Shown: positions 2,334-23,710 of the stretch, piece by piece
Position numbering within the stretch: position 1 is the first letter of the stretch
Layout of the letters: every line of letters begins with the position of its first letter
Source of the DNA: Deuterostichococcus epilithicus
Lineage: Eukaryota > Chlorophyta > Trebouxiophyceae > Prasiolales > Stichococcaceae
Length of the DNA: 64,000 nucleotides
Assembly: GCA_033439295.1 (NCBI GenBank)
Contig: JAVTLE010000014.1
Location: forward strand, 3,906,001 to 3,970,000
Reading direction: 5' to 3'
Translations under genes and position numbers: made by a program
The notes under the pieces: generated by a model
The model's database searches: none
Seen by the model: the letters and a program-made list of their open reading frames with translations, nothing else
What the model was told of the DNA's origin: nothing

Positions 2334-5300
2334 ATGGTAGGCCCTGCATGGGGCAGCGCACCGCTCAGCCTGCAGCATCAAATATCCGACGCATCCAGCT
2401 CGGCACCCACAGACACGCCCCGCGACACGCCCACAGCGCAGCTGCTGAGCACGGGCCCGCTGCGCACTTCCTCCGGCTGGGACGACGACGATGGCCCGCT
2501 GCCTGACCCACGGACCCGCACGCCCCGGTTTGGCTCTGGGGCCGCCAGATCGCGAGACGGCGGCGGCGGCAGCCCCAGCCGGCAGTCGCCGCTGNCGCGG
2601 CAGCCGTCGTGGCACCAGCGCGAGCTCGCGGCACAGCAGACCCGGCGCGAGGCACAACGTCAGCAGCGTGGGCAGGCAGCCGCGGCGCCACCGCCGCCGC
2701 GCCGCCAGTACAGCTCGCCGTTCCTCAACCTGCAGCGCATGGCGCGCAGCTGGCAGCCATTGGACCCGGAGACGGGCGGCGAGCGTGACGACCCGGGTCG
2801 CATGACACGGCGGGAGCCGGTGCGCCCGCCGGACGGCGTGAATGGCAGTACAAACGGCGGCAGGGAGATGAGCGAGATGGGCCGGCCGCCGGCGGATCTG
2901 CGGGGCCTGGACCGCATGCAGTCTTGCGGCATTGACGGCCCAAGTATCCGGCGTGTGAGCAGCAAGGTGAGATACGAGCAGCAGAATCGGTTCTTTGGAC
3001 CCAAGTCAAGTGCCATGTCTGCACTTGGCATCGAGCCCGACCCTCGATGGCAGCGTCTGAAAGTGCGGGGGCGCCATGCCCAGCCACCGAGCCACTACAC
3101 GTGTTGCCCGCCCTCTGCAGAATGGCAAAGTGCCCAGTCTTGACCAGATTCAGAGACGTGAGATGACGCGCTGGCCCTCGCCGCAGGGCTCCGTGGAGCT
3201 GGACGGCCGCGACAGTGGCTACAGCCGCCGTGCTTCACAGCTGGCGGCGGACGGCGACGCTGACATGGAGGCGGGGCGGACCAATCAGAAGGCCAGCAGC
3301 CTGCCGGGGCTGCTGGGGAATGCCCTCGGGCTGCGCATCCCCAACATCGGCGGCCCTGCCTACCAGTCGCCCTCGGGGCGGCACGCTGGGCCGCACATCT
3401 TCAAATGGGTGAGACGAGTGCAACTGATCGCGCGACTGCGGCGCCTTCCAGCGGAGCATGGCGGTCCTCGCGTGGCTGAGCACTGGGGAGCTGCAGACCA
3501 TGTGCCGAATGAAACGCAAATCGTTGCATCGTCCCACGATCATTCCCCAAGGGGCGCATGGGGCAGCGGCTGCAAGTTGGCATCGCCACCGTCTGAGCTG
3601 AGAGTTGGAGTTTGTGTGCCACCCTGCAGAACCAGAACCCGTTCGCCAGCTTCAGGGACGTGTGGCAGAGCCTGCCGCGCGTGGCGCGCGTGCTTCTAGT
3701 GTGGGTGCTGATCGAGGCAGTGCTCATCGTCATCTACGCCACCACCATCCTGGTCACGGGCACCTCCCAGCAGTTCGTGTTTCCGCTGCTGGTGCGCACC
3801 TGCACATGCTGCGCGAGACCCAGCTCCAATTTTTTCATCCCTGACAAGCACCGTCTGGTGTACGACTGACAACAGGCAGTCGACAGCACCCACGACGCAG
3901 GTTGCAGTCAAACTTCAACTTGCCTGCATGAAGAGCAGTCGACACTGGTCGGGCGTCGAAGTGTTGCTTGGTGCCTTGACGCTGCTGCTGCTACTGAGAC
4001 AGACTTTGCCTCCACTTTGCAGATCACGGGCGTCTTCCTGACATACCTGGTGTGGGACGCGGTGCTGCTGGAGAACACAACGCAGCTGTTTGCGAGCATG
4101 CTACTGGCGCTCGCGATTTCCGCCGCCCGAATCGTGTCCAACTCTGTGGGCAAGGAGGCTCTCACCTTCCGGGGGCAGGCGCTCGGCTGGTTCATCCTGC
4201 TCATGCACGCTATCACCATCGTGCGCCGCTCTCACCTGCTCCCCTGATCCTACGCTCTAGCTCGTGGCAGGCATAGACACCCCGACTCGCCGCCCCTGCA
4301 GTCATCCACAGGTTGCAGTGCGGCCTGGCTCTCGGCTCTCGGCTCTGCTGCAGCACCGCAGCCGGGGTCCTCTGTTCGCATTGCGTTCTCTGCAGCTTGC
4401 GCAAACCTTGCATTGCTGCACTTGACGCTGACCTCGATACTGTGTTCACGGCTGTTGTGGTGTGGACGGATGCTCCATGCGCATGCTTTAGGTCTTGGCG
4501 CTGCTGACGTGGCGGGACTTCGGATGGCGGCTGCACAGCCGGCTGGGGGTGGACTTCCGCCGCAAGGGTGCCACTGAGCGGCGCCACGTGTACTCCGCTC
4601 AGGCCACTTTCGTGACGCTTGTCAAGTTTGACGTCATGTGGGAGGTGCGCAAGGGGAAACGCTGGAGGAGCAGCAGCTCTGAACGGCCCTAAGGCCTGCA
4701 TCTGCCTGCTGAAACCTTGCTTTCCTTCCGCCTTTTCCTGCATGTAAGGCAATGCTGAGCTGTCTGTTAGTGGGCAGGTCAACCTCGGCTGTGTCAAGGC
4801 GAGCCTGCACCAATCCAGAAAGTCAGTCCAGAAGGCCAGTGTCTGCGCCCCTCTGCAGATCTCGCTAACGGCGGTGGCGGTCGCGCTGGCGAAGGCGCAC
4901 AGCAGCAACCTGCCGCAGGCGGAGCGCCTGCTGGCCATCAACCTCACGGGCCTGGGCACCAACATGATCATCGGCTGGGGCGCCTGGACCGTCGTCCGCC
5001 ACCGCACCTTCCGCACGTGCGGCCCCTCGCCTCCAGGCGGCCCTGGAAGTCTGGCCTGGGGCAGTTCCTGAGCACAGGGCGTGGGTATTCACAATGAATG
5101 CCAGGCGCCAGTACTGCCTCCTTGCCGACGCCTTCCCGTCAAGAGGGCAAGCGTAGCTGATTCTTTGGATTTTAAAACGGCTGCAAGCGTCCACGATTTG
5201 CATCGTTCTTTTGTCCATTGACACGGCTCCCTTACTGCGGCTCATTGCTCTCTGCTACCGCAGGCTGTGGCCGATTGTGGATGTGCTGATGCCCATCAGC

Positions 5301-8300
5301 TTCCTGCAGCCGGTGCTCACCTTTGCGCTGGTGTGGTCCAACGGCTGGGAGAAGTGGAACGCCGCCTACTGGGACAGCCTGGTGGTGTCGGCGCCCCTCC
5401 TCATCTTCAGCCGCGCCGCGGTGCGTCCATGTTGCTGCTGCCGGCCGCCTGCCCGTCTTGTTCGAAAATCACTCGCACCTCGTGCAGCCAAGACTTTGCA
5501 GTCGGCACCTGCCTAGCCGCGCAAACCTGCGCCTCTTGCACACCGTTCCTGCTCTTGCTTGGGCCGCGCTGTGCGCCGTCCACCCAGTGAACGGCTGGTG
5601 CTTGTCATGCAGCGTGGCTGATCGAGCCCGCTGCTTGCCCTGCGTTGAAGCCTGCGAACGTGTCTCAAGCGCCTGAGGATCCTGAGACTGCGAGCCCCCG
5701 CCTGCAGGTGTGGGCATGCATGCACTACATCCTCTGGCGCATCAAGAAGCTGGAGGGGCTGCAGGGCAGCGCCGATGATGACGACGACCTGCTGCGCCAC
5801 AATGCCCGTGAGCGCTGACTCCCCCTAGTCCAGGCTCTGACGGCCCAGACCAGCGCCTCAAAGGTGTCTGTAATTTTGTGGCAAGTGACCGCCGCAGTGA
5901 GCATCACACATGCTGCACATGGCTGAGGTGCAGCGCCGTCTAGCGTCAGCACTTGCTGCACGGCTCAGGTTCCACTTTTGGCAGCGAGCCAAGATCTTTG
6001 AATCTTTCGTTCAGGGTTGAGGGAAGCTCGGAGGACAGCGCACACACACCCAGAAGATTGGCAAGCCCAGAGCCTGACCATGTTCTGTCCGGATGCAGAT
6101 CTGCACGAGGAGCTGCTGCCGCTGCTGCGGGGCGCCTGGCTTGGCAAACCCAGCCAGGTGTCGCCCCGCAAGCGCTGCTTCTTCCAGCTGTCCCAGGACG
6201 GCTCGACACTGCGCTGGTGACCACCCTTCATGGAATGCTTTCAGTGCGAAACACATCGCCTGTCTCACTCGGAGCATCCGCAATGCGTGACGGCATTGAA
6301 CTCCTAGCATTACGGCTGCTCAGCAATGCGCTGCATACTGCGCGACCTCTCTGCAGCTTCTCCTGCGGCGGTCGTCCACATACTGGCAATGCCTTTGCCT
6401 GTACAGGTCGTGGAACAAGTTCATCCGGCTGTACTACGTGGATGAGATCGTGTGCAACGACACCGCGCTGACCATCACCATCACCATGACAGTGGACCGG
6501 GACCTCAAGCTGCTGTTTGCCGACCGCAAGATGTGCGCCGTCGGCGGTTCCTGTGACAGCTTCCAGCTGCAGCACCTGCGCAATGCCTGCGCCTCCCGCC
6601 CCCACCGCCCCCTCGTTCGCATTGCAGGCGACTGGCTTTGCATGAATCGGAACCATGGACCTGCCGTCATGTTTAAGTGTGCGAGCATGTAGAACCACCC
6701 TCAAGATGCGGACGGCCCTCATCACAACAGGCTGGGTGGCGTACGTCCCCCCTCCGGGCGCACGTGCCAAGCCAGCTTTCTCATGTGCATGACCACTCGA
6801 CAACAGGTTCCAGACGTGGACGGTGGGACTGGAGCGGGCGCTGAGCATGCTGATGGGCCCAGGCGGCGCCGGTCCCGACACCCCCGCCTCCCTCCTGCAC
6901 GGCGGCGGCGGTTCCGGCGGCATCATCCGCACAGAGTGCGCGCTTGGGAGAGTTCTTAGACGATTTATGGCGCCCTTGGGTTGCAAGCAACCCAGTGCTG
7001 CGCTTGTCCGATGGCTCCTCTTGCTGCTGTCTCCTGCTGACACGTTAATGCAATGCATGTCTTTGGCGACGCTTTGCGGTGCTGTGCGGCGGTGTGGCAA
7101 TGCGGGCGCAGTGTCGCAATTGGTTTTTTCAGCTTTTTGGATTGGGGACCACTTAGATCAGAGCTGTAAACCAAAGACCTTAAAGGCTGATGGCCACGCG
7201 ATCCACTGCAGGTCTGGCGGGGTGGCGACCCCCAGCGCGGCGCCGCGCGGCACGAAGTCGCGCCTGCTGCAGACGCTGGGCATCACGTTCACGCGGCAGG
7301 GCGGAAGCTCGGGCGGCGGCCCCCGGCGCAGCTCTGCCGGCGGTGGCGCCGCATCCGCAGGTGCTTTATACTGCCTCACAGCTTTTGCCTTGCTTCACGT
7401 CCGTGGGTGAAGCCAGGCTGCAGAGGCAGGTCTGCTTGAACGTGGTTGTTGCCCCTTTGCGACTGTCAGACAAACATCGGCACTTTACTCCCTGCCTTGT
7501 ATGCGCAGACGGCTCCAAACGCAGCCCCAGGGTGGACAACCGGTGGCAGTTTTGGAGCCGGCCCACAGCCGACGGCGGCACGCCACTCAGCCCCCGGACA
7601 GAGGTAGGGCGTGTCGCCAATGATCTGTGGCCGTCATTGATGGCTGGCTGGTGTCACAGAGGTAGCAGTCAAAAGTCTTGACTGCAGAGCCATGCCCATG
7701 TCTAAATGGCAAGCTCCCCAACACTGCTGCCACCTGCTCCCCTCTCCGCCCTTCAAAACCCATCCCCACTGATAGCGTGGGGCTGAAGCTGGCCGTGACT
7801 TTTGCCCAACCGCGCAGGTTCGGGTCGACCGGCTGCAGCGAGTGCGGCGCATGCAGATGGCGCACTACCTGGACGCGCTGCGGCGGGCGGTCGCGCCGCC
7901 GCCGCCTGACGTCGCGCCACCCTTCACAGAGACCGGTGCGCAGGGTGCACGACTCACGACCATGGGGCGCAGCCATCCAGGAGCCAGCGTTTTCTGTAGC
8001 TACAACTACTGGCGTCAGTGTGTCCCACCACCATGTTGACGCATCCGGCACTACACCCATGGCCAGAGGGCGATGTGATCAAGACTCCTGGTTTTGATGT
8101 GCAGCCCAAGCAGGAGGGACAACATAATCAAACAAGGAGCAGGGAAATCAGGCTCTCAAATCTAAGATGTGTTCTGTCAGGTGTGAAGTCGCCAGAGGCG
8201 GCAGCGGTGGAGGCGGCGCAGCTGGACGAGATCGCCGCGCTGGCGGATTCGGCGGCGCACGAGCCGCGGCCGGGGCGGCAGCAGCTGCGGCCTCCGTCCG

Positions 8301-11300
8301 GCCTCATGTCGTCAGGCGGCTCGCCACCGGCGGGCAGTCCGCCCAACCTGCGCAAGGTACAGGCGCTGGGCAAGCTGGAGGAGCAGCGCTGAGTGCGTGC
8401 GTCGCTGCACAGTGCAAGCCACAGACAGGCCGTCAGCTGTCTGCAGCCCTGGTGCATGAGAGTGCTTCGATGGCGTCGCGAAGCAGCTCGTGAGGCGCTT
8501 CGGCGGGTCGCAGCACGGGCTCACATCTCTGCGTGTGAACGGCGTGTCTCAGATCGCCAGCCTGCGGCGTCCGGAGCTGGAGACGCCCAGCATGGTGTGG
8601 GCGCGCATCCAGGCGGGCGCAGCAGCCGCTTCGCCGCAGCAGCCGCAGCAGCCGGCCAGCCCGGCAGCCGCGGCGCCGCCACTGTCCACCACAACGTCCT
8701 CTGTGTGGGCCCAGATCATGGCGGTGAGCGTGGGCAACAGCACACCCTGTCTGCCGTCGTCAAGTTCCCGCACCTGGCATGCTGGCAGCTGAGCAGCGGG
8801 CAGTCATGCACACCAGAGCAGCAGTGCATGGAGCGACCGGCGCTCACCAGGCAAACGTGGGAACGGTTTGTCATGATCTGCAGGGCAAGGCGGCGGCGTC
8901 GTCGGAGGGTGACGTGGTGGGGCACGACGACCAGGAGAATGTGGCGCCGCGGCCGGGCGGGCGGCTGGCAGCGACGCCAGTGCCCGAGGCGCGGCCGCTG
9001 GCGCCGGACGAGGCCCCCCTGGGGCGCTCCGTGACCGACATGTGGGCGCTGCTGCAGTCCGGCAAGCCTGTCGTGGAGGAGGTGTGCCCTGCCTCCGTGC
9101 AGTCTTGAGGATGCATCCTTCCGGCTTTGCCAGGCTGATTCCCGACCAACCCAAACAGAGGTGCTCGGTGTTTCCTCGCATCTCCAAAGCAGCATCGATC
9201 GTGTGTACGGTTGCGGTGTGGGGTGGGTTGCGCGTGGCTCAGGCAGCTGACCGTACACCTGCCAGACAAACATGACCTCGAAACGCCGTCAGAGTTGCCA
9301 ACGTGTACCTCACACGCCGTGCACTGGCGCCGCCCTCATCCCGCTCGACCACCCGTGCCATCCTCAGCCCCGCCTCGCCGAAGCCCTTGTGCCTGTTGCA
9401 GCGGCTCTGTCCCTTCCTCTTTGCAGGTGGCGCACCCGCCGCCGATTGCCACGCCGTCGGGCAGGGTGCACTTGTCATCGACGGACGGCGGGCCAACGGA
9501 GCGCAGCCCTGCGCCGAGCCCCACCGTCGACTCGGTGCTGCACTCCATCTGGGTGGACATCATCGACAAGGAGGAGCTGCGCTTTGGGCGGCGCCTCGGT
9601 GCGCCGTCTCAATGTTATTTGGGCATCTCCAGGAAGTATTTCTGCTGTGCGACGCCCCTTGCCCCTAGACCTGGCGGTGGCGCCGCCAAAAGCAACGCAC
9701 CTATTTTCTGCGCCCTGCATACCCTGGTGTGCACATCGTGTGTCGCGAGCGGTGCTTTGCATGGCTGCTCAGTACGCTCTGAGTCGCCTCAGCGCCCGTC
9801 CCAACCCGGGGCCTGGCTCTGCCCAACGCAGGCGCCGGCGCGCAGGGGGAGGTGTACGCGGCCTGGTGGCGCGGCAAGCCGGTAGCAGTCAAAAAGTTTG
9901 CGCGGGCAGCGGACGCGGTGCACGAGGTGCAGATGCACCTGTGCGCCGGGCAGCACACCAACATCGTGGAGCTGCGGGCGCTGTGCCAGAGCGACGCCGC
10001 GCTCTACATGGTCATGGTGCGGCGCTCTTGGCTGGCTGCAGTCCCCATAACGGCCAGAGCTCCTGCGCCGGCCTGCTGGCCCTGGACCGGAGTTTAACCG
10101 CCTCCACAAGGCAGCCCTGCCAATCAAGCCGTCATGTGCTGCACATCATACTCACCGCAGGGCAGCCTTTTCATCCCAACATGCTCAACGTCATCAGTGA
10201 CCGCACAACAGCATGAATGGGAGGACAGGCGCTGACGGCCCATGTTCCACCCTCGCAGGAGTTCTTCCCGCGCGGCACACTGGAGGTGATGCTGCACCAC
10301 ACAGCCAGCAAGCGGTGGGACACTGCCAAGCTGCTGCTCATCATCCGCTCCATCGCCAGCGGGCTGCAGTACCTGCACACGCGCTCGCCGCCCATCCTGC
10401 ACCGCGACATCAAGCCCGGCAACCTCTTTGTCGGCGTCAACCAGGCATGTTACCGGCCTGTCGCCAACACTCTTTGTGGTCACAGACACCCGCCTGTGGC
10501 ATTTTTGGGCTGTGCGGCAAGTATTGAACACGCAAGTGGTAACATGCATGCTTGTCGTAGACCCCTCCTTTGCGCTGAGAACAGCATCGGACTGACACTC
10601 TGTCCAGGCAGGCCGAGGCGCCGTCGCAGCTCGGACCCGCACTGCCTGCTGACTCGAGTCAACCTGGCCCATGTTGATGAATGGGTTAGTCAGCTCTGTT
10701 GCCGCCCCGCAGACCATCAAGCTGGGGGACTTTGGCATGTCTCGCTTTGTGGGGGCGGACAGCGTTGCCACCGTCACCGGGCGGCGCACCCTGGCCCGCA
10801 ACCTCACCGTCGACATCATCGGCACCGCGCAATACGCCTCCCCGGAAATGCTCAACGACGAGCTGCTGGTGCGCATTCTCTGACGCAGCAGGACGGGTGC
10901 AGATGCGTCATCGCCCCTGCATCACGTGGAAGCATTGAGGTTCAACTGAGGCTCGGCCAATGACCGACGGCCTCATACTCGCCGCGCTGGGCGACACACG
11001 CACAGCACACGTCAAAGCTGCCGTCTGCGCAAGCGTGCCTGCAGCGGCATCGTGCCCATTCTCTGCAAAGTCTGGTGCATGCTGCAATCAACCACTGAGC
11101 ATGCCGCCACGGGCTGCAGGAGGGGGTGCCGGAGGACGCCACAGGGCGGCGCCACCTGAAGATCGACGTGTACGCCTTCGGCGTGACGCTGTGGGAGATG
11201 CTCATGCGGCAGCGCCCCCACGGCGACCTGCACGCGTTCCAGATCCAGGTGCGCCCTTCTCTCAAGAATGTCCCGCTAGCTGTAAACCCCATCATGGTAA

Positions 11301-12263
11301 AATTGATTCTGCGGATCGTACTCTGCGATGCAGAATGGAAGTCTACTGTTGCAGGGTGAAAGTCTCCTATGCCTGATCGATTGCTGACAGGCAGCGTCGC
11401 TGACATGCACATGCCGCCAAACCAACAGCCTGTTTCCCCACGGCACAGGGCACTGCCTCTTTGTTTCTGCCGCTGCCTTCCCAGCCGGCCACAGCACACA
11501 GCACCAGCTGGTGCCTGCGCAAGTGTCCCGGTGTTCACAAGTCGTTGTGGCTGGTGGCGCAGGGCCTGGTGCTGCTGAACCTGGAGGAGCTGGTGGGGCC
11601 GCTATGTAGAGGCTCCCGTTGACCTGACGTCCAACATGTCCGCCGTCCGAAAGACGAGTACTATGTGGAATGTGTCCTCCGCAGGGCCTGGTGCTATTGA
11701 ACCCAGAGGAGCTGGTGCTGCCGCCGGTCAAGGTGCCGGACGACATGGCGGCGCACGAAAAGGCGGCCATCCGGTCGCTGGCGGACCTGGTCACGCAGTG
11801 CACCGCCTTTTCGCCGGATGCGCGGCCCTCCGTCGCCGAGATCCTGCAGGTGAGTGCCTCGCGCCGCGCGTGCTCGTCATCCCGGCACCTGAGCGGCACG
11901 CCGAGGCTGCGAGTAGAGCCTGAGCCTGTGGGCGCTTGAGTCAATGGCCGCTTCTGCCCCACTGACCCCTCTTCATCCTGCCTGCCACAGATGCTGGACG
12001 ATGTGTGGAGCAGCTTCGCCAACAACGCCGAGGCGCGCGCGGCGGAGACCGCCGCCAGCCGGCCGCCGGCGGCGCCCTCCGCTGGCGCCGGCATCGGCGC
12101 CGTCGGGGGGCTGCTGGGTCAGGCGCCGCCGCGCGGCGGCATGCGGGAACTGCTGCGGGGCCACAGTCGAAAAGGATCCTTCTCCCGCGCCGCGCCGCCC
12201 GACCTGGAGCGTGTCTCGGAGGTTTCGCACTCGCGGCAGGGCTCCTGGTCGCAGCCGCCCTGA
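2334..12263 (+). CDS. Gene A: multi-pass membrane protein fused to a PH-like domain and a TKL-type protein kinase
   Basis: About 1,500 residues in roughly 24 exons: 2334-3062, 3121-3408, 3630-3791, 4023-4220, 4492-4644, 4859-5016, 5264-5420, 5708-5807, 6099-6216, 6407-~6540, 6807-~6942, 7212-7360, 7509-7603, 7818-7935, 8181-8356, 8487-8723, 8884-9081, 9427-9598, 9832-10016, 10259-10444, 10713-10868, 11120-11248, 11685-11849, 11991-12263. Order: a polar Arg/Pro/Ser-rich N-terminus of about 340 residues; about eight hydrophobic helices (3650-5750); a PH-like domain (6099-6900, with RGAWLGKPS, KRCFFQLS and a closing helix TWTVGLERAL); a Ser/Pro/Ala-rich linker; and a kinase. Kinase landmarks are intact: GAGAQGEVYAA, VAVKKF, LHRDIKPGN, LGDFGMSRF, ASPEML and DVYAFGVTLWEML, the last typical of TKL/Raf-like kinases. 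Splice phases join the membrane, PH and kinase exons in one frame. The membrane part reminds me of a fungal/protist family catalogued as DUF7789 (from memory, unverified). Likely a membrane receptor kinase; ligand unknown. The start is the first ATG of the open exon. Confidence 0.72.
11559..11717 (+). repeat. Duplicated 5' end of a gene A kinase exon
   Basis: The acceptor and first codons of the exon at 11685 (gcag then ggcctggtgct..gaacc..gaggagctggtg, 11681-11717) are preceded by a close copy at 11559-11595, also behind a cag acceptor. The upstream copy would read GLVLLNLEELVG and then hit a stop. It is a pseudo-exon or an alternative exon that would end the kinase early. Confidence 0.75.
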
Positions 12264-12305
12264 GATGGCGCAGTGCCGCGCTCGCGGCACGGCTCCTGGT
12301 CGCAG
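12230..12305 (+). repeat. Direct repeat at the gene A C-terminus, second copy beyond the stop codon
   Basis: A 25-base unit at 12230-12254 recurs at 12281-12305 with one mismatch. The spacing of 51 bases keeps the frame, so past the TGA at 12261-12263 the same frame stays open and encodes SRHGSWSQ, echoing SRQGSWSQ before the stop and HSRKGSFS further upstream. The second copy is followed by gtgact, a possible donor. The annotated stop may therefore not be the true end. Confidence 0.7.
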
Positions 12306-13117
12306 CAGGTGACTGGGGCGCTGACACCCGCTCGGCGGGTCAGGAGGCCCATGGCGGCTGGGCAGCAGCAGGATGGCGCGCGCACTGCCCGGTCAACACA
12401 GTGGACGGCCAGTCGGCTGGCTGGTGCATTCGGATGTGGACGGTGGGGCGCCAGGCCGGGCGCTGCTGACAGGGCTCGATATCGTAGCGCCGCAAGCCTC
12501 TTCGAGGAGGCTGGTCTGTTGTATTGGTTTCCAGTTTGGGGGTCTCCAGGGGCAATATCATCCTCAGCACTTCCCGGCGCCACCTGAAAAGCCCTGGCGT
12601 GAAAATTCTTTGGGCGGCATCCCGTCTGAGCGCTGTGTTGCTGGACCCACAGCCTGCAGCATCACATATCAGAACACGACGGGCAGAAGTGTGTGCACTG
12701 ATGAACCACAAGAACATCACAGTTTCGAACCTAGAACTTTGTGCTGTTGCACAGTTTGCACTCTTGCTGTAGTATAAATACTTCATTGAGCACCTATTGC
12801 AGCAAGACCAGCTAAAAGTCTACAAGTCAAGCAACGACCGTTTGGCAAAGCAGGCAGAGCATTGATAAGCACTTTCACCACTCTGCGACCTCACATGCAT
12901 AGAGTTAGCATATGAAGTCTGATCTACAGCTGAACATAGGGTGGCCTCCTTTCATCGATCTGCGGCCCTTCCTGCAGCCGCTCAGCAGGTTGCTTGTCCG
13001 TCTATAGTCCCATACAGCGCTCAGTCCTCATCTCTTATTGTACACCTACGGGCCAGGAAGATATTTTGGCGCGATCACGTTCTTCGTGCATGCAGTAGGG
13101 TCGTCCAGATGCAGATT
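12264..13117. other. Convergent 3' region between gene A and gene C
   Basis: Genes A (+) and C (-) end towards each other here. The first 320 bases stay open in gene A's frame (see the repeat at 12230-12305) and may hold a further exon. The rest is lower in GC than the genes, consistent with 3' UTRs. Nothing else is recognisable. Confidence 0.4.
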
Positions 13118-14418
13118 TAGTCAATGACCCATCCTGCTGATGTGCGCACCTGCTTGCTGGAGATTGTCTGGTCACCGATGGTCATGGTGGACAGGAGGTG
13201 CATGACGGCCGGTGACTGCAGCGTATACACTTCCCTAATCTTGGCTGCGGCAGCCAGCACAGATGCAGAGAGTCGGTGTGCGAACACCAAGCATGCTGCT
13301 CGACATGAGTGGCCTCAGCCCTGTATCGTGCGCTATGCACTATGGCAACATGCATGTCAAAATTCGTCGTTCTACGCCGTAGGCAACTCGAGCCAGTGAG
13401 GGCGCTTGAGTGCGCCAGACCTGAGTAGGGGTCGCCCCAGGTCACGTCGACCTGCACGCCGCCATTGACCTTCGTCAGGGTGCCGGTCTGCTGCCCCGAG
13501 CGCCGGTCCCGGCGCCCCATGCTCGTCTGGTCGTCATATTTGTAGCTCTCCACCTCCCTGCATGCACGTCGTTCCCGGCTCGCACGTGGGGTCTCTCGCC
13601 TGCTGCTTCACGCTTGCTATGGCGAGGCTTCACAGGTGTATGGAGGGCAGCAGGCGTGGGGCGTACAGCAACACTGGACGCCCACCTGAAAACGAAGCTC
13701 GGCACCTTCTTCACCAGGAACCTGAGGGTCATGCCTGTTGAGTGCACATGCACGGTCAGACCGGCATCCAGCACATCCCAGCATACGCCAGGCCAGAGTA
13801 CACCGTCTGTGCGGAGCCAGGGTAGAATGGTGAACGGCGCTTCAAACACACGCAAACATTCAAGTCCGCATGAAGCACCTTGATTGTCTGAGTTGATGTC
13901 CAGGCCCCACATGAAATGCAAGGCGGCGTACGTCTGGACACTGCGCACAGCATATACAGCATCCTTGCCGTGAGTGGCAGCACTGCCGCGTCAGCGCAGA
14001 TTACCAGCATCCAGGTTGTGCTTGCTGCTTGACAAGCAATCGAGCTGGTTTGTGACCAAGGTCGACATGCGAACGGGGGAGCTCAAGCTTACCTGCTCAT
14101 GTGCAGCATCTCGACCTGCCGCGCATATGCAGCCATGTCGCTCGCCGCAGTGTCCTTCTCCCACCGTCCTGTGAGGTCTGAGGCGCCATTGTGCTGCTCC
14201 TCCGAGGGCTCGGGCTGTTGTTTCGAGGTCGCTGCTTGCGCCGCACATGGCAGAGGGGTCGCTGATGTGTCCGAGGCGGACGCCTTCGAGGACCATCCCC
14301 ACGATGGCAGCCAGGAGCCCAGCAGGCTGCCGGAACTGGCAGCGGCCTGGGTCTGCGGCTCAGTGGACGCGGACATGGCTGCAATGTGCACGAGGATGAT
14401 ACACACCCTGAGGAACAT
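13118..14418 (-). CDS. Gene C: secreted or ER-targeted calycin-like protein
   Basis: Exons 14418-14093, 13940-13879, 13734-13686, 13557-13421 and 13244-13118 (or ending at 13150 with one more exon not found). The first residues, MFLRVCIILVHIAAMSAS, form a likely signal peptide. A Ser/Ala-rich stretch follows, then DLTGRWEKDTAASDM. Later exons give GMTLRFLVKKVPSFVF, MGRRDRRSGQQTG and VDVTWGDPYSG. The short order (GxW, then a series of beta-strand-like segments, then RRD.R.G.QTG) is what I expect of plant lipocalin/fatty-acid-binding-like (calycin) proteins that bind small hydrophobic ligands, but no motif proves it. Gene D is a clear paralogue with two exons of identical length (137 and 95 bases). 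It lies between the facing genes A and B. Confidence 0.55.
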
Positions 14419-15030
14419 TTTGCATTTTGCTTGCGTGTCGAAGGGCCTGTCCGAGACTTATTATGGTACTGAAGTTAAGACGCAGTTGCATATGTTGCTA
14501 AGACGAGACGTTGATTGGCGTCATGTTGGTGAGGAAATTGTTTACAGTGTATCACTCATTCTTGTTCGACTGCTGTCGGTCTCATGCAAGAGTGGCATAG
14601 GTTACGCTTCTGCACCGTGGAAGTCGTCAACCAACTGCCGCAGCACCAGCAGCAGAGATGAAGAGAGGAGGATGTTTGTGCGTCTTGCCCAAGCACAGAA
14701 AACGTACTCAAACTTCGGCTGGTTACTTCGGCTGATCGCCTCCCTGTTACAGAAGCCGCAGGCACGCCGCGGCGCCAGGGGCGGCGGCGGCATCCCTCCA
14801 GGAAATGCGTTCTCCAGCTGCATGCCTCGGATGATGCTGCCAGGGCCTCATTCCTTGGCCGCTGCTAGCTTGTACTGCGACTCTATCTTGACTATGATAG
14901 TGTACACCTCCCTGCAACACAAGACAGCGCAGTCGGTCGGCACCGGCACAGGTCGCAAGACGCCAAGCACGCCAAGGCCAGGCACCTCAAAACATCAGTC
15001 GAGGATCCTGGCTAGGCACGCATCACATCG
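14419..15030. other. Upstream region of gene C and downstream region of gene B
   Basis: About 610 bases between the start of C and the stop of B, both on the minus strand. A 318-codon plus-strand frame (14099-15055) crosses it but overlaps gene C's first exon antisense and has no recognisable content. I see nothing else. Confidence 0.4.
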
Positions 15031-18000
15031 CTACGCAGGAGCTGCAGCAAATTGAGCACTTGCAGCAAGCGCAAGCGTGTCACAGGCAGGCGAGCGCGGC
15101 CGGCGCCTTGACCCCTCTGGCCGGCAGCGCGGCAGGCTTCTCGCAGGGACGCACTCGATGGTGGGGCGCTCGTTGGCAGCGGTCACGGTGCAGGCGTCCA
15201 CGAGTCCCGCCAGCGCCTGCCAGGCGGCCTTCGTTGCAGCGTCGAGCGACTCCGGCGTCTTGAGCGGTGGCAGCCGCAACTCCTCCGGGTTGATAATGCT
15301 CAGCGTCTGCACCACCAGAACTTGTTGTTCTTTTCAACCCCCTCGGGATGTGCACCATGACACAAGTGCTGCGCCGCACAACGCCCTCAGCCTCCGCGAC
15401 AGCGGCTCCAGGTGTGGTGCAAAGCAACTGCAACTCAGATCAGCAGGGTCCGGAGTCGAAACTCCTCAGACGGGCGGTGCGGCAATCGGCAGGACGACAG
15501 CCTGAGCACCTGAATCTGGTAAGGGTCCATGCCCTTGTAGGGGCGTTTGCGCTCCAGCAGCTCCCACAGCGTGACGCCAAAGGAGTACACGTCCGCCTGC
15601 GCGCGGTGCGGGATTTGGTGTTGCGGGGCATTGTAATGGAAACATTTGCAGCCCAACCCAATGCTGCAGGCGGCAAAATAATGGCGCCCATTAATGCACA
15701 GCAGCACGTGGTCGCTCGCAGCCTTGCAGTGCCTCCGTCTCGTGCTGGTCAGGCAAGGTTGACAGCACGTGCTACTGCTTGCAGTCTGTTGCTTCGATCC
15801 ATGACGAACACCCAGAAGTTTTGCCCACCAGATCAAGGTTGTCCCAGCCGCGCGCCTGGAGGTAGCGCTGGTCGGGCGTCGACCCATGCATGTTGAAGGG
15901 TGTCAGGGAAGGACGAAATAAAGAAAGCGGGCGCGCCTGGAGGTAGCGCTGGTCGGGCGACATGACATCCAGCAGGTCCTCATTCATGAGCTCGGGAGCA
16001 GCGTACTGCGCCGTGCCGATCACGTTGGGCGTCAGCCGCGCCAGCTGCGGCGGTCCCTCTGTCAGCAGCGCAGCCCCGATGGCGTGAGTTTGCTGCCGAT
16101 CCGGACATGCCCTACATGCCCCTCTTGCCTCAAATGCCTCCAATGGCAACGCTGCAAGGCCTCAGAGCGTGGAAAAGTCGCAGCCGATCAACACCTCTGT
16201 TCTGGTCTCGCAGTGCAAGTCCGCACCCAGTGCCGATGAGATGTCGCAGATACACATGCGGAAGAGAAGCATCGAGGGTGACGCGCCGCACCCGCCGCTG
16301 CGACGAGGTCCACGTACCGCGACATGCCAAAGTCGCCAACCTTCAGGTTCTGGCCCGTGCCCACGAAGATGTTGCCGGGCTTGAGGTCGCGGTGCAGCAC
16401 CGGGCGCCCCCGGGCGTGCAGCACCCGCACGCCAGCGGCGGTCGACCGCACCATGGGGAGCAGCTTGTCCATGCCCCAGGCGCGGCTGGAGGTGTTGTGG
16501 ATCAGCACGTCCAGCGTGCCCCTGCCGACCCACATCCAGATGCCAGTGGGTTTGCTGCCAGGGGCTGCAGTAGTCAGGCAGTGCCAGCAGTGGCTCATGG
16601 CCACTGCTGGTGCATCAGAGCCCGTCAGGGAGCAAGAAGGTGCGCAGCCAGGACGAGTTGCTCAAGTGCCCGAGGGGGGCCAGGGGACTCTGAAGGTGCC
16701 AAAGAAGCTCCCGCTCCTACGACTGTGACGAAACACACATGGTGGGCAGTGCGTGCTTACAGCAGTGCAAGGGACGCATCCTCACTTCCAGGGATTGCCT
16801 GACCTGTTGGAGACCCGCACCTGGGGCAGTACTCCATGACGAGGTAGACAGCGTCATCGCGGCGGCAGTAGCCGCGCAGCGGAACGATATTGTCGTCGTG
16901 CCCACCGGTACCAACCGCGGTGTGCATGCGCAGTTCGTGGATGGAGTCGGACGCCCTGTTGAAGCGCTTGACCGCCACCATGCTGTCGCGCCACCAGGCC
17001 GCGTACACCTCCCCCTCCGCGCCCGCGCCTGTACACACAGAGCAACCAGCATGTGGGAGGCAAACGATGTGTATTGTCAGGCACGCCCCACTGGCACGGA
17101 CGGTAGTCTCTGCATCCTCCACCCTGCGCATCCAAACACTCAACGCTGCAGCGACTGGCGGCTGGAAGTGTCATTGCCGGCCGTCTGCAGGGGCAGCTTG
17201 CCGCCCTCTCATAGCGACAAGGGTCTCCAAGGAGCATCCACCCAAAACTTGCACAGCAATGTCCCACACAAAACACTCACCCAGGAGCTTGCCGAATTCA
17301 AGGTCCTCGTACTCTATGGCCTCCAGGACGCCACCGCGCACGCCCGAGGGCAGGCTGAACACGCCTTTGGTTTTGCTGCTCTGCAGCCGCATCAGACCGC
17401 CGCCCTCTGCGCCGCAATTGAGTATTGCCATGTCGATCCGCGATGTGACGCACGTATGCCAGGCTGCCCAGCGGGCACGGCCCCGAGGGCATGCGCGGCT
17501 GCGTCGGCGCCGCCGACGGCTGGCGCCGCCGGCGGACTTCGACGTGATGGGCACATATCCTTGTTCCTGGTTCATGCATGAAACATGGAGGGTTGTCCGA
17601 CATGTGCAGCATGCAGCGGCACGGCAGAAGGCCGAAACTGCGAAGCCTTAAGCGGCAGCTGGGCAGCACACCTGCCGCCATGGTGGCCAGAACGTCGTCG
17701 TCTGCAAAGTCGAACAGCTTATTCGGGTCAAACGATGCCTTCTTTTCCTCCTGTATTCGCAGCAGAAAGTCATTTCTAGGTGATAGTTTCAGAGTGACAC
17801 ACATGCTGGCTAGCTGGCTGGCTTTACATTGACAGGAATGTGCAAGCCGCTGAACGCATTTGCAGGGATGGTTGCTTGTCACTGAGAGCCTCCGAGGTGG
17901 AAGTTCGTCCGCAGCACACACACACTGGCGCAGCAGGCTGCGCCGCGCTCGCGGCCAGATTGTATGGGGAATGGAACAAGAAGATAGAGTAGTGGCTCAG

Positions 18001-21000
18001 GGACCGTGACGCAGCACGGTGCGCCGCACTTGCAGCCCAATGATATGGGGAATGGACGAAGGCGACAGATGCAAAGTGGCTCCGGGAAAAACCAGGTGCA
18101 ACCAGGTGCTAAGGAGGATGTCGGGTGGGATGCTAGGGCAGGGCACCCGAACAAGCCCAGACTGCAGCGGCATGGCAAGCGGCGAGGTCGAGAGCTCAGA
18201 CCGGAGGAAGCACGAGAACAAGGATGCACACACTACCTCGGATTGAAAAGCACTGCCAGTGCTGGCGTGGCATCTGAACCTAAAAGGGGTGCAGCAGCAT
18301 GCTGTTTGGCCACGGTCAAGGGACAGGGAACTGGAGGGACAACCCCGGGGTGGGATGCAGGAGGGGTTTTGGTTCCAAAAGGCAATGCACCTGGACCAGC
18401 ACGGACTGCAGCGGCATGGCCGGCACCTCATCCGCCTCGTCGTCAGTCGACGACAGGTCGTCCATGGTGGGCCGCCGCGGCAGCCGCGGCGACGGCGGCG
18501 CCGATGCCTCCTTTGGCGGCGGCAGCGCTGCCTCAATGTCGTCTGCGCACACACAGCTATGATGGCATCACATTAGCAGCGGTGCAACACTGGCACAGAC
18601 CGTCCGGCTTTCACAAGCCAGCGGCCGTTCTGTTTGGGTGGTGTTGGAGGAACACAGTGCCGCCGGCCTGCAACAGCATGCAGTGGGGATGCAGCAACGC
18701 AGTCACCTGTGACGAGACAGAGAGAAGCAAAGAGGGGAAACCCCTCACCGGGCTCCGTCGACGCGCCGGGGTGGTGGTCCCGGATGACGATGCCCACCAT
18801 GTGGCGCAGGAACTTGCGGTTGGCGCGGCGGTCCTCGGGGCCCGCTGCGGCACCGGCGCTAGGGCGCGCCAGGTTCTGCGGCCGCGCCGCCGCGCCCGCG
18901 CCAGGGCTCATGAGGCTGCCCACCAGGGCCTCCAGGCCCTGCTGCCATGCCACGAACCTGAGTGCATGGTGAACAACGAGCGCATCAGCCTGGAAGCATC
19001 ACGCGTGCGACCGGAGGCTGCCGCAGAGAGGTGGGGGTAGTTGCAACCCGAAATGGAGGCTGCACGACGCGGCAGCCGTGCCAAGTCGGGGTTCCGGCCG
19101 GGCTTGGCGGAGAGTCTGCAGTAGCAGGCAGTTGTTCGGCCGGTGCAAGCACTGGAACTCGTGCTGGCAGGGCATCGTGCACCCACGCACTTCGTCCCAT
19201 CGCAGAATCCAGCTCGCTTGGCCCCATCGCAAATGGAAGCTCGCTCACTTGGCCTTGTCACGGAACTTGAGCGTGAGGTCCGCGTCCGTGATGAAGCGCA
19301 GCGTCAGCGTCAGCTGCTCCCGATCCACGTCCATGGCCTCCAGGTAGAAGAGCCGCACGTACTTGCGCCAGGACCAGCGCAGAGAGGCGCCGTCAGCAGA
19401 CAGCTGGAAGAAGCGGCGCTTGAGCGGCTTCCGGGCGGAGGGTTTGCCCAGCCACGCGCCGCGCACCAGCGGCAGCAGGCTGCGGTCCTTGTCTGCGACA
19501 GACCAGCGGTGCGGGGGGTGTTCAGAACCGTTCTGCGCTTGCCCAAGGCGCAGCAGCGGCGCGCTGTGAGGGGACGTAACTTTGTCTGTCGAAATGGTGG
19601 AGCAAGTTGCGACTCGCACCGCACGGCAGTGCTCCCAAGGGCATGAACAGCAGCAGTCTTGCGCAGGGTTTGGCTTACTCATGTGGCAATCCCCTCCCCC
19701 TGTTCTGCTAGATGACAGCCAAACCTACAGCAAAAGATATCTGCCGCCGCACCTGCAAGATTTGACGCCGCGCCCTGGTCCAGTCGGTTCACGGTCTGTG
19801 AGCAGTACTTCACCTGCACAGGAGGACCCGGCGACATTGGTTCAGCGTGACGCTACATTGCCATTTGCGGCCACGCGTGGTCGAACCAGGAACACAGCAA
19901 TTCACAGGCAGGTCGCCTGCATTGCGGCGCTGCAGACTGAGTTTTAGGCGACAAGCAATCCTGCCATAGCACGCTCACCAGGTGCATCATGGCCCACAGG
20001 CACAGCCTGGCCCAGATGAACAGCCCGCAGACGACGGCCATAGATGCCCTGCGTCGGTGCATGGGCATCGATGCTGCTGGACTGCAAAGGGGTTGAGACT
20101 TGCAACGTTGAGCAGCGCACAGCCAATGCACGCGCCCTGAGACAAGCCAGGCTCTGTTCAGGCAGGGATAGCAGCAACCGGCGCGGAGGAAAGGCCCAGA
20201 GCCTCACTTGGCATGCTGCACATCCTCATGGCGCTTGAACTCCCAGCAGATGTTGGCTATGGGCTGAATGAACGATATGGGCATGAGCAGGAAGTCCAAG
20301 ACGAGGGTCCTGTGTGGGTCAATCATGTCATCTTCAGCTCACAGGTACACAACATTCACCATGGTCGTGACGTGCACTGCCACACTAACTGCCGTCAATA
20401 TGTCCGTCTGCGAGTGCAAGCCTAGGCCTGTTCACCCACCCTCGAGAGGGTGGAAAGGGGCATGCTGCAAAAAGGGAGGGGCATTGCAACAAAAGCAACA
20501 GGCGCTTTACCATGAAGCGTGCAAAAGCGGGGGATCATCTGCGACGACTCACCGGCGCAGCTTTCGAGGGTACTTGAGCGCAAACCACGCCGCCATGCCC
20601 ACCAGGACATTGACGACGAACAGCACGCTGTTGTAGCCCAGGATGAACCACGTCGGCTCCCGGCACACCTCGCAGTCGTGGTTCTTGATCCAGATGACGA
20701 TGGCCGACATCGTCATGATTATCTGCGGGCCAGCCCCAGCAGGTTGCCTTGCGGTGCCCTCAGCAGGCGGACATCTAGGGTGTATTCTGACAGGGCATGC
20801 CACAAACAGGGAACTCATGTGCCAGCTAGCCAACATTCGGCGCACTTGGAACACCGTGGGTTTCTGAAACCTCATTGCTGCTGCTTAACCACTTGGAAGA
20901 CTACTCCAGACAGGTTTTCAGGGACGAGACAGGTGCTGCTCACCAGGAATTGGATGTCGAGCTTCTCAAGGGTCAGGAACAGCGCTTTGCTGAGGTACAG

Positions 21001-22152
21001 GCGCATGCGCTGATGCGCGTCCTTCTTACGAAAGTCGACGGCCTGCCGACTGAAGATGCGCCAGCCAAATTGCAGCATCGTCCACAACGCAAGGAACTGC
21101 GGGAAAGGACACAGGGTCATGTCGCAAAGACCTCGAGGGCACGACTCCCCGCAGCGCTAGAGCTGGTCATGCAAAGCGATGCGGCGGAAAGCAGGGCAGC
21201 CATATATGTCACAGCGTGGCTCAGACGCTGCAGTTGCACACGTTTGATATTCGTCAGGAGAGCTCACAGCGGCATGGATTTTGTACTCGCGCAAACGCAG
21301 GACACGTCGGACTATTGAAGATCTCACAATGACGATGACTTGCAGTGCGGTGATGCCGCTGAGCAGCACGATGCGGCCGGGGAACTCCTTCCGCTTTTTG
21401 GCGATCACGTAAAACAGCACTCGCGCCAGCACAAGCCCGTCGAGCACCACCGCCGCCAGCAGCTCAAAGGCGTTTTCGGTGACAATGCCGTCCACCACAA
21501 AGTACAGGAAGAACGCCGCCGTGACCTGCGCATCGTGTTGACCATGTGGCAGGCTATCCTTATCTGTTCGGCAGTGGCACTTCCACGGTGCGAGGTGGAT
21601 CACAACCTCCTGCAACGCCAGCACGAAACTAACCAGCGTTGCATCATCATCATTCGCGTAAAAACGTTCGCGCCAGCACCGCAATCCTGCTTACCGCCAG
21701 GGCAAGTGCGATGTGCAGCGACTCCTCGATTGCTCCGCCCGGCCGATTCACCGACCAGCCGCAGTAGGCCCACACCAGGCACACGTCCACGAGGGCCACC
21801 GCCACGAAGAGGTAGGATGTCCAAGACAGCGAGGACAGGAACTCCCCCCAGCCGTCCTTGAACGGCGCCCCCTCCTACAGCGGCGGCAATGCGACGCCAT
21901 CGAGTGTGGCATGTCGGACAGTCGGAAGTGCGCACCGGACAGCGGCACATGCAGCACACCTCAACGCATTGCGCAACACCAGCGCACCTCAAATCCCAGG
22001 TACGTTGAGCTGCGCGCCAGGGATTTTGCGGTGCCGCTGGCTGATTGTTGGGTGCTGTCATCGGTCGGCATGGGGCCGTCACCGCCATCCGGAGGCGCTT
22101 TTTCAGCTGCAGTGGTAGCAGCCTCAGGAGCCTCGACGTCCCCGCCGTCCAT
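15031..22152 (-). CDS. Gene B: paralogue of gene A (multi-pass membrane, PH-like, TKL-type kinase)
   Basis: Exons in gene order: 22152-21988, 21874-21695, 21525-21328, 21096-20944, 20722-20553, 20309-20208, 20048-19979, 19813-19753, 19492-19249, 18957-18749, 18542-18391, one near 17760-17672, one ending 17281, then 17028-16821, 16521-16292, 16058-15937, 15596-15510, 15306-15031. A short acidic N-terminus is followed by about eight membrane helices, a PH-like domain (RGAWLGKPS, RRFFQLS, SWRKYVRLFYLE, WQQGLEALVGSL), an acidic Ser/Pro linker and a kinase. The kinase keeps GAGAEGEVYAAWW, VAVKRF, LHRDLKPGN, VGDFGMSRY, AAPEL and DVYSFGVTLWELL. Two membrane exons (198 and 153 bases) equal gene A's in length. 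The linker is much shorter than in A and the N-terminus is about 55 residues. The last codons (RPTIE to the stop at 15031) may hide a further intron. The exons near 17.7 and 17.3 kb have uncertain starts. Role as in gene A. Confidence 0.68.
15850..15959 (-). repeat. Identical 29-base direct repeat spanning a donor site in gene B
   Basis: The sequence gcgcgcctggaggtagcgct plus ggtcgggcg (plus strand) occurs at 15850-15878 and again at 15931-15959. On the coding strand it encodes the exon end PDQRYLQ followed by a gc dinucleotide, so the likely GC-AG donor is present twice, 81 bases apart. Using the second donor would add 27 codons in frame. Confidence 0.85.
18144..18420 (-). repeat. Diverged duplicate of a linker exon end and donor in gene B
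   Basis: The end of the exon at 18542-18391 (reading AMPLQSVLVQ before gt) has a weaker copy about 240 bases further into the intron (18178-18144, reading AMPLQSGLVR before gt). The same intron also carries two related copies of a block containing atggggaatgga near 17966 and 18043. The intron seems to be built from diverged tandem units. Confidence 0.6.
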
Positions 22153-23668
22153 TGGTCCGACAACCTAAGGTTTGCTTCGCATTCTTGCCAGTGCCGCAGT
22201 TTATGTTCTGCTCAGCCTCCAGGCACTTTGCATGGCGAATGCCTGTACACAGGTACCCAAGCACGTTGCAAAGCCACAGCGTTCTCTCGTCCTGCTGATC
22301 AGTTGGCCAGCAGTCGCAAACGCGTCGTCTCGGCTCAAGCTTTTCAAAGAAGTTTGAGCTTGTGCTCAACGCGAGTGCCGCTCTCACTGTCTCTGGCGAA
22401 TCAAACTTCCCAGACGTCACATGCCGGACGCAAGCAGGCGCCTGGGCCCTGCACCTCGAGTTCGTACGGCAAGGGATGAGAGGAGCACTTCCGGGTTTGT
22501 AGGACTGTCGGATCGTCGCGTTAAACCCGCTACTCAATTGATTGCAGCGCGCTGCGTTGGAGTCGATGATACTGTATTGGCAACTTGGTTGCAGGCATGC
22601 GGCGAGAGCGTATTCGACGCGCGAGAGATTGCAAGAAATCCGGGCGCCCTGTAGCGATGTACAAAAGTTTCGTACCGCGGCAATTTTCCGCCGCATTGCA
22701 AAATATGTTTCTCCACGCTCAATGATGGAAATCAGCACCATACGGGGTCGGTCAGCCAGATGCACAATCTAAGAAAGCACTTGAATCAGGCAAGGTTGGT
22801 ACACCGGAGGAACGGGGTTGCGCGTGCGCGAAAGGGCGGCGGCCCGCAAACAAAACACCGTCAAGGGTTTCAGCGCGTCAGATTCATCAGGCGGTATGCT
22901 GCTGTGCATCTCACGTGGCCCCTTGGGGTATTGAGTATGTAGTGATTGTCAGGGCAAACCAGGCAGCGAGGGTGCCGGCAGCATATTCGTGGGGAACTAG
23001 CAGGCGTCAGCGGCTGAACCTTGCTCAGCAACGAGTCACCAGCTGGTGAGTCGATGTGTGCTTCTACCAGGATTTGGGCTTTTGCAGCTTCATCGCTGTG
23101 TGCACTCCAGCTGACGAGTCACATGATGTTCCAGCAGCCTTCATGTCGGCTGGTTGCTGATTGAACATGCATCATTCAGTGAGGTGTGTCAGACAAATTG
23201 TGGCGGCTGTGTAAATCACCGAAATCATGACATCTTACAGACCTCACACGTCAAAGCAGGTTTTGCGCAGATGCCTCGCTGTTGCAAAGGACAATGTCTC
23301 ACGAGCAGGTACAAGTCAAATGTTAAACCCTACGTCCCTAACCCTACTGAACACTGGTGAAACTCTCAACCTCACACTATCTCCTTCTGCAGAGGAGTTG
23401 TCTATGACAGGCTTGGTACATGCACCATTTGCGCCGCAGCATTCCTCTGTGACAACTACCTCTGGCGAAACAACAGCGGCGCTACTGGACTAGCGATGCG
23501 ACTGCCTGCAATAGTTGTCTTCTCTGACGTTGACCTTTCCAAACAATGTGGACCGCAGTGTCCGGTTCCTGGTTTGCATTGCCGCAACTAATCATACTTG
23601 CGGTAAATCTGCAATGGACAACATCTCGCGAGTCAGCTGACTGGCAGAGCTGAATTGTGCATGCACGA
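22153..23668. other. Upstream region of gene B and 3' end of gene D
   Basis: About 1.5 kb with no recognisable protein. It should hold gene B's promoter at the left end and gene D's last exon and 3' UTR at the right end. A frame continuous with D's last seen exon runs to a stop at 23482, but it crosses the probable GC-AG donor at 23727 and its sequence is unconvincing. Confidence 0.35.
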
Positions 23669-23710
23669 GGCAATGCAAGCAAGGCAATGCAAGCAAAGCA
23701 ATGCAAGCAG
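23669..23710. repeat. 14-base tandem repeat, three copies
   Basis: Unit ggcaatgcaagcaa at 23669-23682 and 23683-23696, with a two-mismatch copy at 23697-23710. It lies just past the probable last intron donor of gene D. Confidence 0.9.

Follow-up and report, generated by a model that had tools for sequence, protein, structure and literature searches.

A tail-to-tail gene pair predicted to encode multi-pass membrane kinases with a PH-like domain in the green alga Deuterostichococcus epilithicus

A 64,000-nucleotide stretch of the Deuterostichococcus epilithicus genome (assembly GCA_033439295.1, contig JAVTLE010000014.1, positions 3,906,001 to 3,970,000 of the forward strand; hereafter the window, to which all coordinates refer) carries two genes, A and B, that lie tail-to-tail. 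With a probability of roughly 0.6, each of them encodes a single membrane-embedded Ser/Thr kinase, built of a tail, a membrane domain with eight hydrophobic segments, a PH-like domain, a linker and a RAF/CTR1-like kinase domain, and the two form an old duplicate pair. Both loci have the same gene order, a spliced frame running through all parts, an intron conserved at the junction of the membrane and PH-like parts, and intact kinase motifs. The tethering of the kinase to the membrane is well supported by the predicted proteins.

Results

Two genes with the same order of parts

An initial annotation of gene A had read one frame at 2334–12263, in which a membrane domain is followed by a PH-like domain and then a kinase. 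This frame is borne out by a model with 24 exons (1,486 residues) and by the same order of parts in gene B, and the two junctions singled out there, 5807/6099 (phase 1, with two bases supplied from 6099) and 9081/9427, are correct as given: exon 8 ends at 5807 with C, and AT is supplied from 6099. The ATG at 2334 has an in-frame stop close upstream, at 2328, and a single N at 2595 yields an X in the protein. The donors of gene A are GT except for one GC, and the acceptors are AG. The boundary between exons 10 and 11 was shifted from 6539/6814 to 6532/6807, because gene B has the same phase-2 intron; the Pfam search with the whole of gene A, one structure search and the genome search with the PH part were made with the version 6539/6814.

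Upstream of exon 23 of gene A there is a 45-base partial copy of its start (11558–11602 on the plus strand; 39/45 identical to 11680–11724), with its own acceptor-like CAG and a TGA as codon 20 in the frame of the exon; it looks like a dead exon duplicate.

Gene B came to light when the membrane, PH and kinase parts were each searched, exon by exon, against the alga's own genome of 46.8 Mb in 21 contigs. Between its exons 16 and 17, an 81-base segment (15936–15856) has the form of a GC-AG intron, yet is open in frame; hence the two exons may be one longer exon, and the protein would have 970 residues if the segment is retained. The sequence CCCGACCAGCGCTACCTCCAGGCGCGC is present twice in gene B, at about 15960–15829 on the minus strand.

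The membrane part gave, beyond A and B, one non-significant match (E = 0.71) among the best genomic candidates scored, and the PH part gave no further copy among the best candidates scored. The gene A kinase matched the exons of gene B with E-values as strong as 4.4e-24, the next best place in the genome being at 9.1e-7. No relatives were confirmed in viral contigs (44 pattern stretches) or in contigs of prokaryote genomes (60 stretches), as expected for a eukaryotic gene. The genome is photosynthetic, with 39 exon-level matches to chlorophyll a/b-binding proteins.

Identity between the copies is 30% in the membrane domain (90/298 aligned residues), 49% in the PH-like domain (48/98) and 52% in the kinase domain (153/293). 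For the comparison of introns the alignments were cut at motifs, leaving 685 aligned codons with 15 introns of gene A and 14 of gene B. Nine of these 15 match an intron of gene B in both codon and phase, the chance expectation being 0.10; as one of them, the first, falls on the starting edge of the alignment, the count without it (8/14) is the safer one. Among the shared introns are two of phase 1, one at the membrane–PH junction and one in the kinase G-loop, and a phase-2 intron that follows the PH strands. At the junction, the interrupted codon is the same in both genes, five residues ahead of LLPL; a gap directly ahead of LLPL is seen in two A/B alignments and is absent from the motif-cut alignment and from the PH alignment. 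Since this intron is common to A and B, splicing across the junction most likely predates their duplication, and the membrane–PH–kinase layout is probably older than the duplication too.

One chain or several genes

The alternative to a single chain is that each locus comprises two or three separate head-to-tail genes (for the membrane, PH and kinase parts), which were duplicated together and kept their order with no fusion. To characterise the exons lying outside the recognisable domains, a codon score was trained on 1,196 codons of the domain exons and applied to the remaining 22 exons. Of the three frames, the spliced one scored best in 21 of these (exon 1 of gene B is a near tie), and its score was positive in 19. 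In exons 1 and 2 of gene A the spliced frame was again the best, with 0.06 and 0.19 bits per codon. All eight linker exons of gene A (exons 11–18; 0.10 to 0.55 bits per codon) and all four of gene B (exons 10–13; 0.36 to 0.47) scored positively, always best in the spliced frame. The link between the PH-like domain and the kinase rests on this score, as the linker exons align poorly between A and B. Introns long enough to be scored (41 of 42) gave −0.83 to −0.22 bits per codon in their best frame; these low values are partly built in, because the background was drawn from the same introns, and the best-of-three result is unaffected by this.

Several observations weigh against a single chain. 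Part order alone could survive the co-duplication of separate genes. Three held-out exons of gene B, 1, 7 and 8, have negative scores (−0.30, −0.25 and −0.16), and exon 8 is the last one ahead of the membrane–PH junction. In favour of separate genes, the junction intron of gene A contains an in-frame stop (5816–5818), then, at 5869, TGTAA, which is a poly(A) signal of green algae, and, at 6080, an ATG in frame. In gene B, in-frame ATGs are found at 19682, within the junction intron, and at 17681, in exon 12, and the 640-base intron ahead of the kinase exons has TGTAA at 17828.

Across the pair, however, such signals are frequent: TGTAA occurs in 6 of the 42 introns, an in-frame ATG precedes 20 of the 42 downstream exons (for 18 of them in the immediately preceding intron), and both are found in 5 introns. 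Therefore neither marks the junction. Moreover, the junction intron of gene B has no TGTAA, and exon 18 of gene A, the first kinase exon, has no in-frame ATG inside it or upstream, back to the stop at 9136, from which a separate kinase could start. In A and B alike, the linker exons read as coding when spliced in frame, and the junction introns occupy an identical codon and phase. The splice consensus (40 GT and 2 GC among the 42 donors, AG at all 42 acceptors) gives no independent support, because the sites were picked to fit GT/GC-AG. We consider separate genes quite unlikely, and it is very likely, judging by frame, introns and coding score, that A and B each encode one polypeptide.

As to the ends of the genes, TGTAA is found 97 bases beyond the stop of gene B, and there is none in the 2.6 kb following the stop of gene A (12264–14847, plus strand).

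The kinase domain

The initial annotation had described an intact TKL-type kinase, and the Pfam search on the joined protein agrees: Pkinase matches residues 1118–1396 of gene A at 1.6e-38 and PK_Tyr_Ser-Thr at 5.3e-35. Strong matches of the whole of gene A are to the kinase alone, with a weak ABC1 match (0.036) inside it. Gene B matches Pkinase at 2.1e-34. The motifs of gene A, read directly, are LGAGAQGEVY (the G-loop), VAVK, HRDIKPGN, DFG, SPE and DVYAFG; the G-loop, VAVK, HRD.KPGN, DFG and [SA]PE are intact in both genes. HRD followed by.KPGN points, as a rule, to Ser/Thr specificity, which suggests Ser/Thr activity for both predicted kinases.

Among solved structures, the best match of the gene A kinase is Arabidopsis CTR1 (3ppz, 1.5e-28); for gene B, CTR1 is second (2.2e-23), after an EGFR chain. 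MLT and B-Raf stand near CTR1 in the lists, and EGFR and ABL are also high, in a ranking by matches to solved structures.

The PH-like domain

PH domains typically have basic first strands (K...K.RFF.L) and a C-terminal helix with a conserved Trp. Both genes have GKPS..P.KR.FFQLS..G..LRWSW and W..GLE in this part, and the sole Pfam family that scores here in either gene is PH_12 (PF16457), over its first strands. We take PH_12 to be the ELMO-type PH domain. The first three of five non-significant matches among solved structures are ELMO1 and PLC-delta1 chains; matches to UVR8, RNA polymerase V and an antibody chain were likewise non-significant and were taken as chance.

The PH assignment has its own counter-evidence. 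The PH_12 scores are below the cut-off of 27 (gene B, 19.2 bits, E = 0.0017; gene A, 15.5 bits, E = 0.024), in the domain search on the joined protein, too, this part stayed under the cut-off, and it had no significant match among solved structures. The genome search with PH_12 gave no match anywhere, the controls included, and is hence uninformative. For this part, "PH-like" is the right label.

The membrane domain

Hydropathy was assessed by 19-residue Kyte–Doolittle peaks with a threshold of at least 1.1. The membrane domain of each gene has eight such peaks; over the rest of the two proteins the maxima are 1.01 and 0.94, below the threshold. The most basic loop in both genes is that between segments 4 and 5, with 8 Lys/Arg, which fits the cytosolic side. 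Against eight crossings, loops 3–4 and 7–8 of gene B, which should then be outside, carry 5 Lys/Arg each. Thus, of the eight helices initially proposed, the eight hydrophobic peaks stand, and the number of crossings may be seven or eight.

Gene B matches DUF7789 (PF25044) with E-values of 2.4e-6 for the whole protein, 3.8e-7 for the membrane domain and 3.9e-8 for segments 1–4 (27.9, 30.5 and 33.8 bits, all above the curated cut-off of 25), and segments 1–4 span positions 6–126 of the 129 in the profile. Two reversed controls gave a best E of 0.014, to other families. Gene A has no match to DUF7789 at E up to 10, and its membrane domain would be related to this family through gene B only. The DUF7789 profile found one exon in the genome, below threshold (0.05, 18.6 bits), at gene B. 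The membrane domain has no significant match among solved structures. Similar motifs may also occur in fungal proteins.

Two alternatives accept one protein and differ in what the membrane domain does. In the first it is a mere anchor or a transporter-like scaffold, control of the kinase comes from the cytosol, and there is no receptor. Hydropathy shows no ectodomain in either protein, the loops are short, no hydrophobic segment that could be a signal peptide precedes the membrane domain, and Pfam gives neither a GPCR (G-protein-coupled receptor) nor a transporter family for either membrane domain; these points speak for an anchor or scaffold. Eight segments, however, exceed the needs of an anchor, and the 90 identical residues, together with the motifs FGWR, DFR.K and LMPISF.QP, were kept between otherwise diverged copies. 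We regard a mere anchor or scaffold as doubtful.

In the second, the proteins are algal members of the GPCR-TKL type, coupled to G-proteins, in which seven of the hydrophobic segments cross the membrane and an eighth stays on one side. The overall layout is alike (PMC5784254, PMC6033456), and the basic loops 3–4 and 7–8 of gene B, together with marginal segments, would allow seven crossings. On the other hand, Pfam gave no GPCR family, with E allowed up to 10 for gene B and for both membrane domains and up to 1 for the whole of gene A, and no G-alpha subunit scored above the cut-off in the genome, where two partial matches lie within profile positions 167–232 (a weak test with prokaryote controls). 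Proteins of the GPCR-TKL type thus seem very improbable here.

Table 1. Coordinates of the two genes and their parts in the window
Feature	Coordinates	Strand	Description
Gene A	2334..12263	+	24 exons, single frame, 1,486 aa, TGA ends at 12263; order: N-tail, 8-segment membrane domain, PH-like domain, linker, TKL kinase
Gene A, exons 1-2	2334..3408	+	307-aa low-complexity N-terminal tail
Gene A, exons 3-8, membrane domain	3630..5807	+	eight hydrophobic segments; peaks inside residues 325-588
Gene A, membrane-PH intron	5808..6098	+	phase 1
Gene A, exons 9-11	6099..6935	+	PH-like domain (residues 617-714) plus linker start
Gene A, linker, exons 11-18	6807..9598	+	395 aa
Gene A, exons 18-24	9427..12263	+	TKL (RAF/CTR1-like) kinase domain, C-tail
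Gene B	14848..22152 (runs 22152-14848)	-	943 aa in 20 exons; tail-to-tail neighbour of gene A
Gene B, exons 2-8, membrane domain	19753..21874	-	eight hydrophobic segments; DUF7789 match in segments 1-4
Gene B, membrane-PH intron	19752-19493	-	phase 1
Gene B, exons 9-10	18749..19492	-	PH-like domain, linker after
Gene B, linker, exons 10-13	17281..18957	-	159 aa
Gene B, intron	18390-17751	-	640 bases, longest of the A/B pair
Gene B, exons 13-20	14848..17406	-	TKL kinase domain

Elsewhere in the window, a tandem array of three copies of a 14-base unit lies at 23668–23709, and an open frame at 60107–60946 (plus strand) has weak matches to RING zinc fingers, the best of them (0.00035) being below the cut-off. 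The long open frames at 28235–29641, 34013–34861, 42061–43272 and 42411–43439 (minus strand) have no Pfam match at E 0.01.

Discussion

If A and B each encode one membrane-embedded kinase, the following mode of action can be proposed. Both ends of the protein would face the cytosol, with the PH-like domain just inside the membrane, after a membrane domain distantly related to DUF7789, and the kinase at the end of a flexible linker, 395 residues long in A and 159 in B. It is plausible that the PH-like domain positions or gates the kinase at the bilayer: it may read a membrane lipid or a bilayer-adjacent GTPase, and so hold or release the kinase. The membrane domain would act as the sensor, in which a small molecule, a lipid, tension or a partner protein causes a change that is passed to the kinase. 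The kinase might then start a cascade of the mitogen-activated protein kinase (MAPK) type, an output proposed because of its RAF/CTR1 kinship. The proteins would in this case be receptors, a role that we infer, perhaps sensing through both the membrane and the PH-like parts.

CTR1 is a soluble protein that is recruited to the multi-pass ethylene receptors. It resembles A and B in its kinase domain and differs from them in being separate from the membrane receptor, so that one chain would here do the job of two proteins. Plant receptor-like kinases have a single helix, a large ectodomain and a kinase of the TKL group; they are likewise membrane proteins with a related kinase, whereas A and B have eight hydrophobic segments and no ectodomain. 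Proteins with DUF7789, a domain of unknown function, are similar to segments 1–4 of gene B and have no direct match in gene A; the family is named nowhere in the literature searched. As for the ELMO-type PH domain, its PH_12 profile scores below the cut-off in A and B, and no ELMO domain is found among their Pfam matches.

The initial annotation had compared the protein with the one-helix receptor kinases of plants and suggested a new receptor class with no described family. The presence of the membrane, PH-like and kinase parts in one protein is upheld, and their order (DUF7789-like membrane domain, PH-like domain, RAF/CTR1-like kinase) is absent from the literature searched, a weak test given the narrow searches. 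However, the membrane part has relatives in DUF7789, the receptor role is conditional, and the one-helix kinases are not the sole yardstick, because multi-pass membrane TKL kinases are already in print. They have been described from oomycetes, amoebozoans and choanoflagellates (PMC5784254, PMC6033456, PMC12716839): P. infestans has 17 GPCR-TKLs (PMC5784254), and a 2010 kinome paper counted in this species 99 kinases that carry between one and nine membrane segments, every one of them TKL (PMC3019232). A 2018 mBio survey reported no evidence of GPCR-TKLs beyond oomycetes and amoebozoans (PMC5784254), and an eLife paper adds that choanoflagellates also have GPCR-TKL/K (PMC12716839).

As GPCR-TKLs are described there, they and A/B have in common an N-terminal multi-pass membrane domain and a C-terminal TKL kinase in one chain. 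They differ in the membrane domain, which is a seven-helix one of the GPCR type in the former and in the latter has eight hydrophobic segments and, in gene B, a likeness to DUF7789; in the DEP domain, which nearly half of the oomycete GPCR-TKLs carry at the C-terminus (PMC5784254) and which, like a GPCR domain, has no match in A/B; and in the PH-like domain, which in A/B, unlike GPCR-TKLs, stands between the membrane domain and the kinase. A and B have the layout of GPCR-TKLs, add a PH-like domain and come from a photosynthetic lineage; the membrane family, on the tests made, is not shared.

It is tempting, if tentative, to suppose that algae of the green lineage independently built a class of receptor kinases from an eight-segment DUF7789-type sensor, a PH-like domain and a RAF/CTR1-like kinase; with similar reserve, such a class could be placed outside both the single-helix receptor kinases of plants and the GPCR-TKLs. 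Were this so, a multi-pass, non-GPCR receptor-kinase layout would be added in a photosynthetic lineage, and the orphan DUF7789 would be tied to kinase signalling, with a testable readout and, for membrane proteins of this family, a first way into their function. By comparing the tail-to-tail copies one could readily test what each domain has to keep, and A and B would be a natural single-chain counterpart of the two-protein module of ethylene receptor and CTR1.

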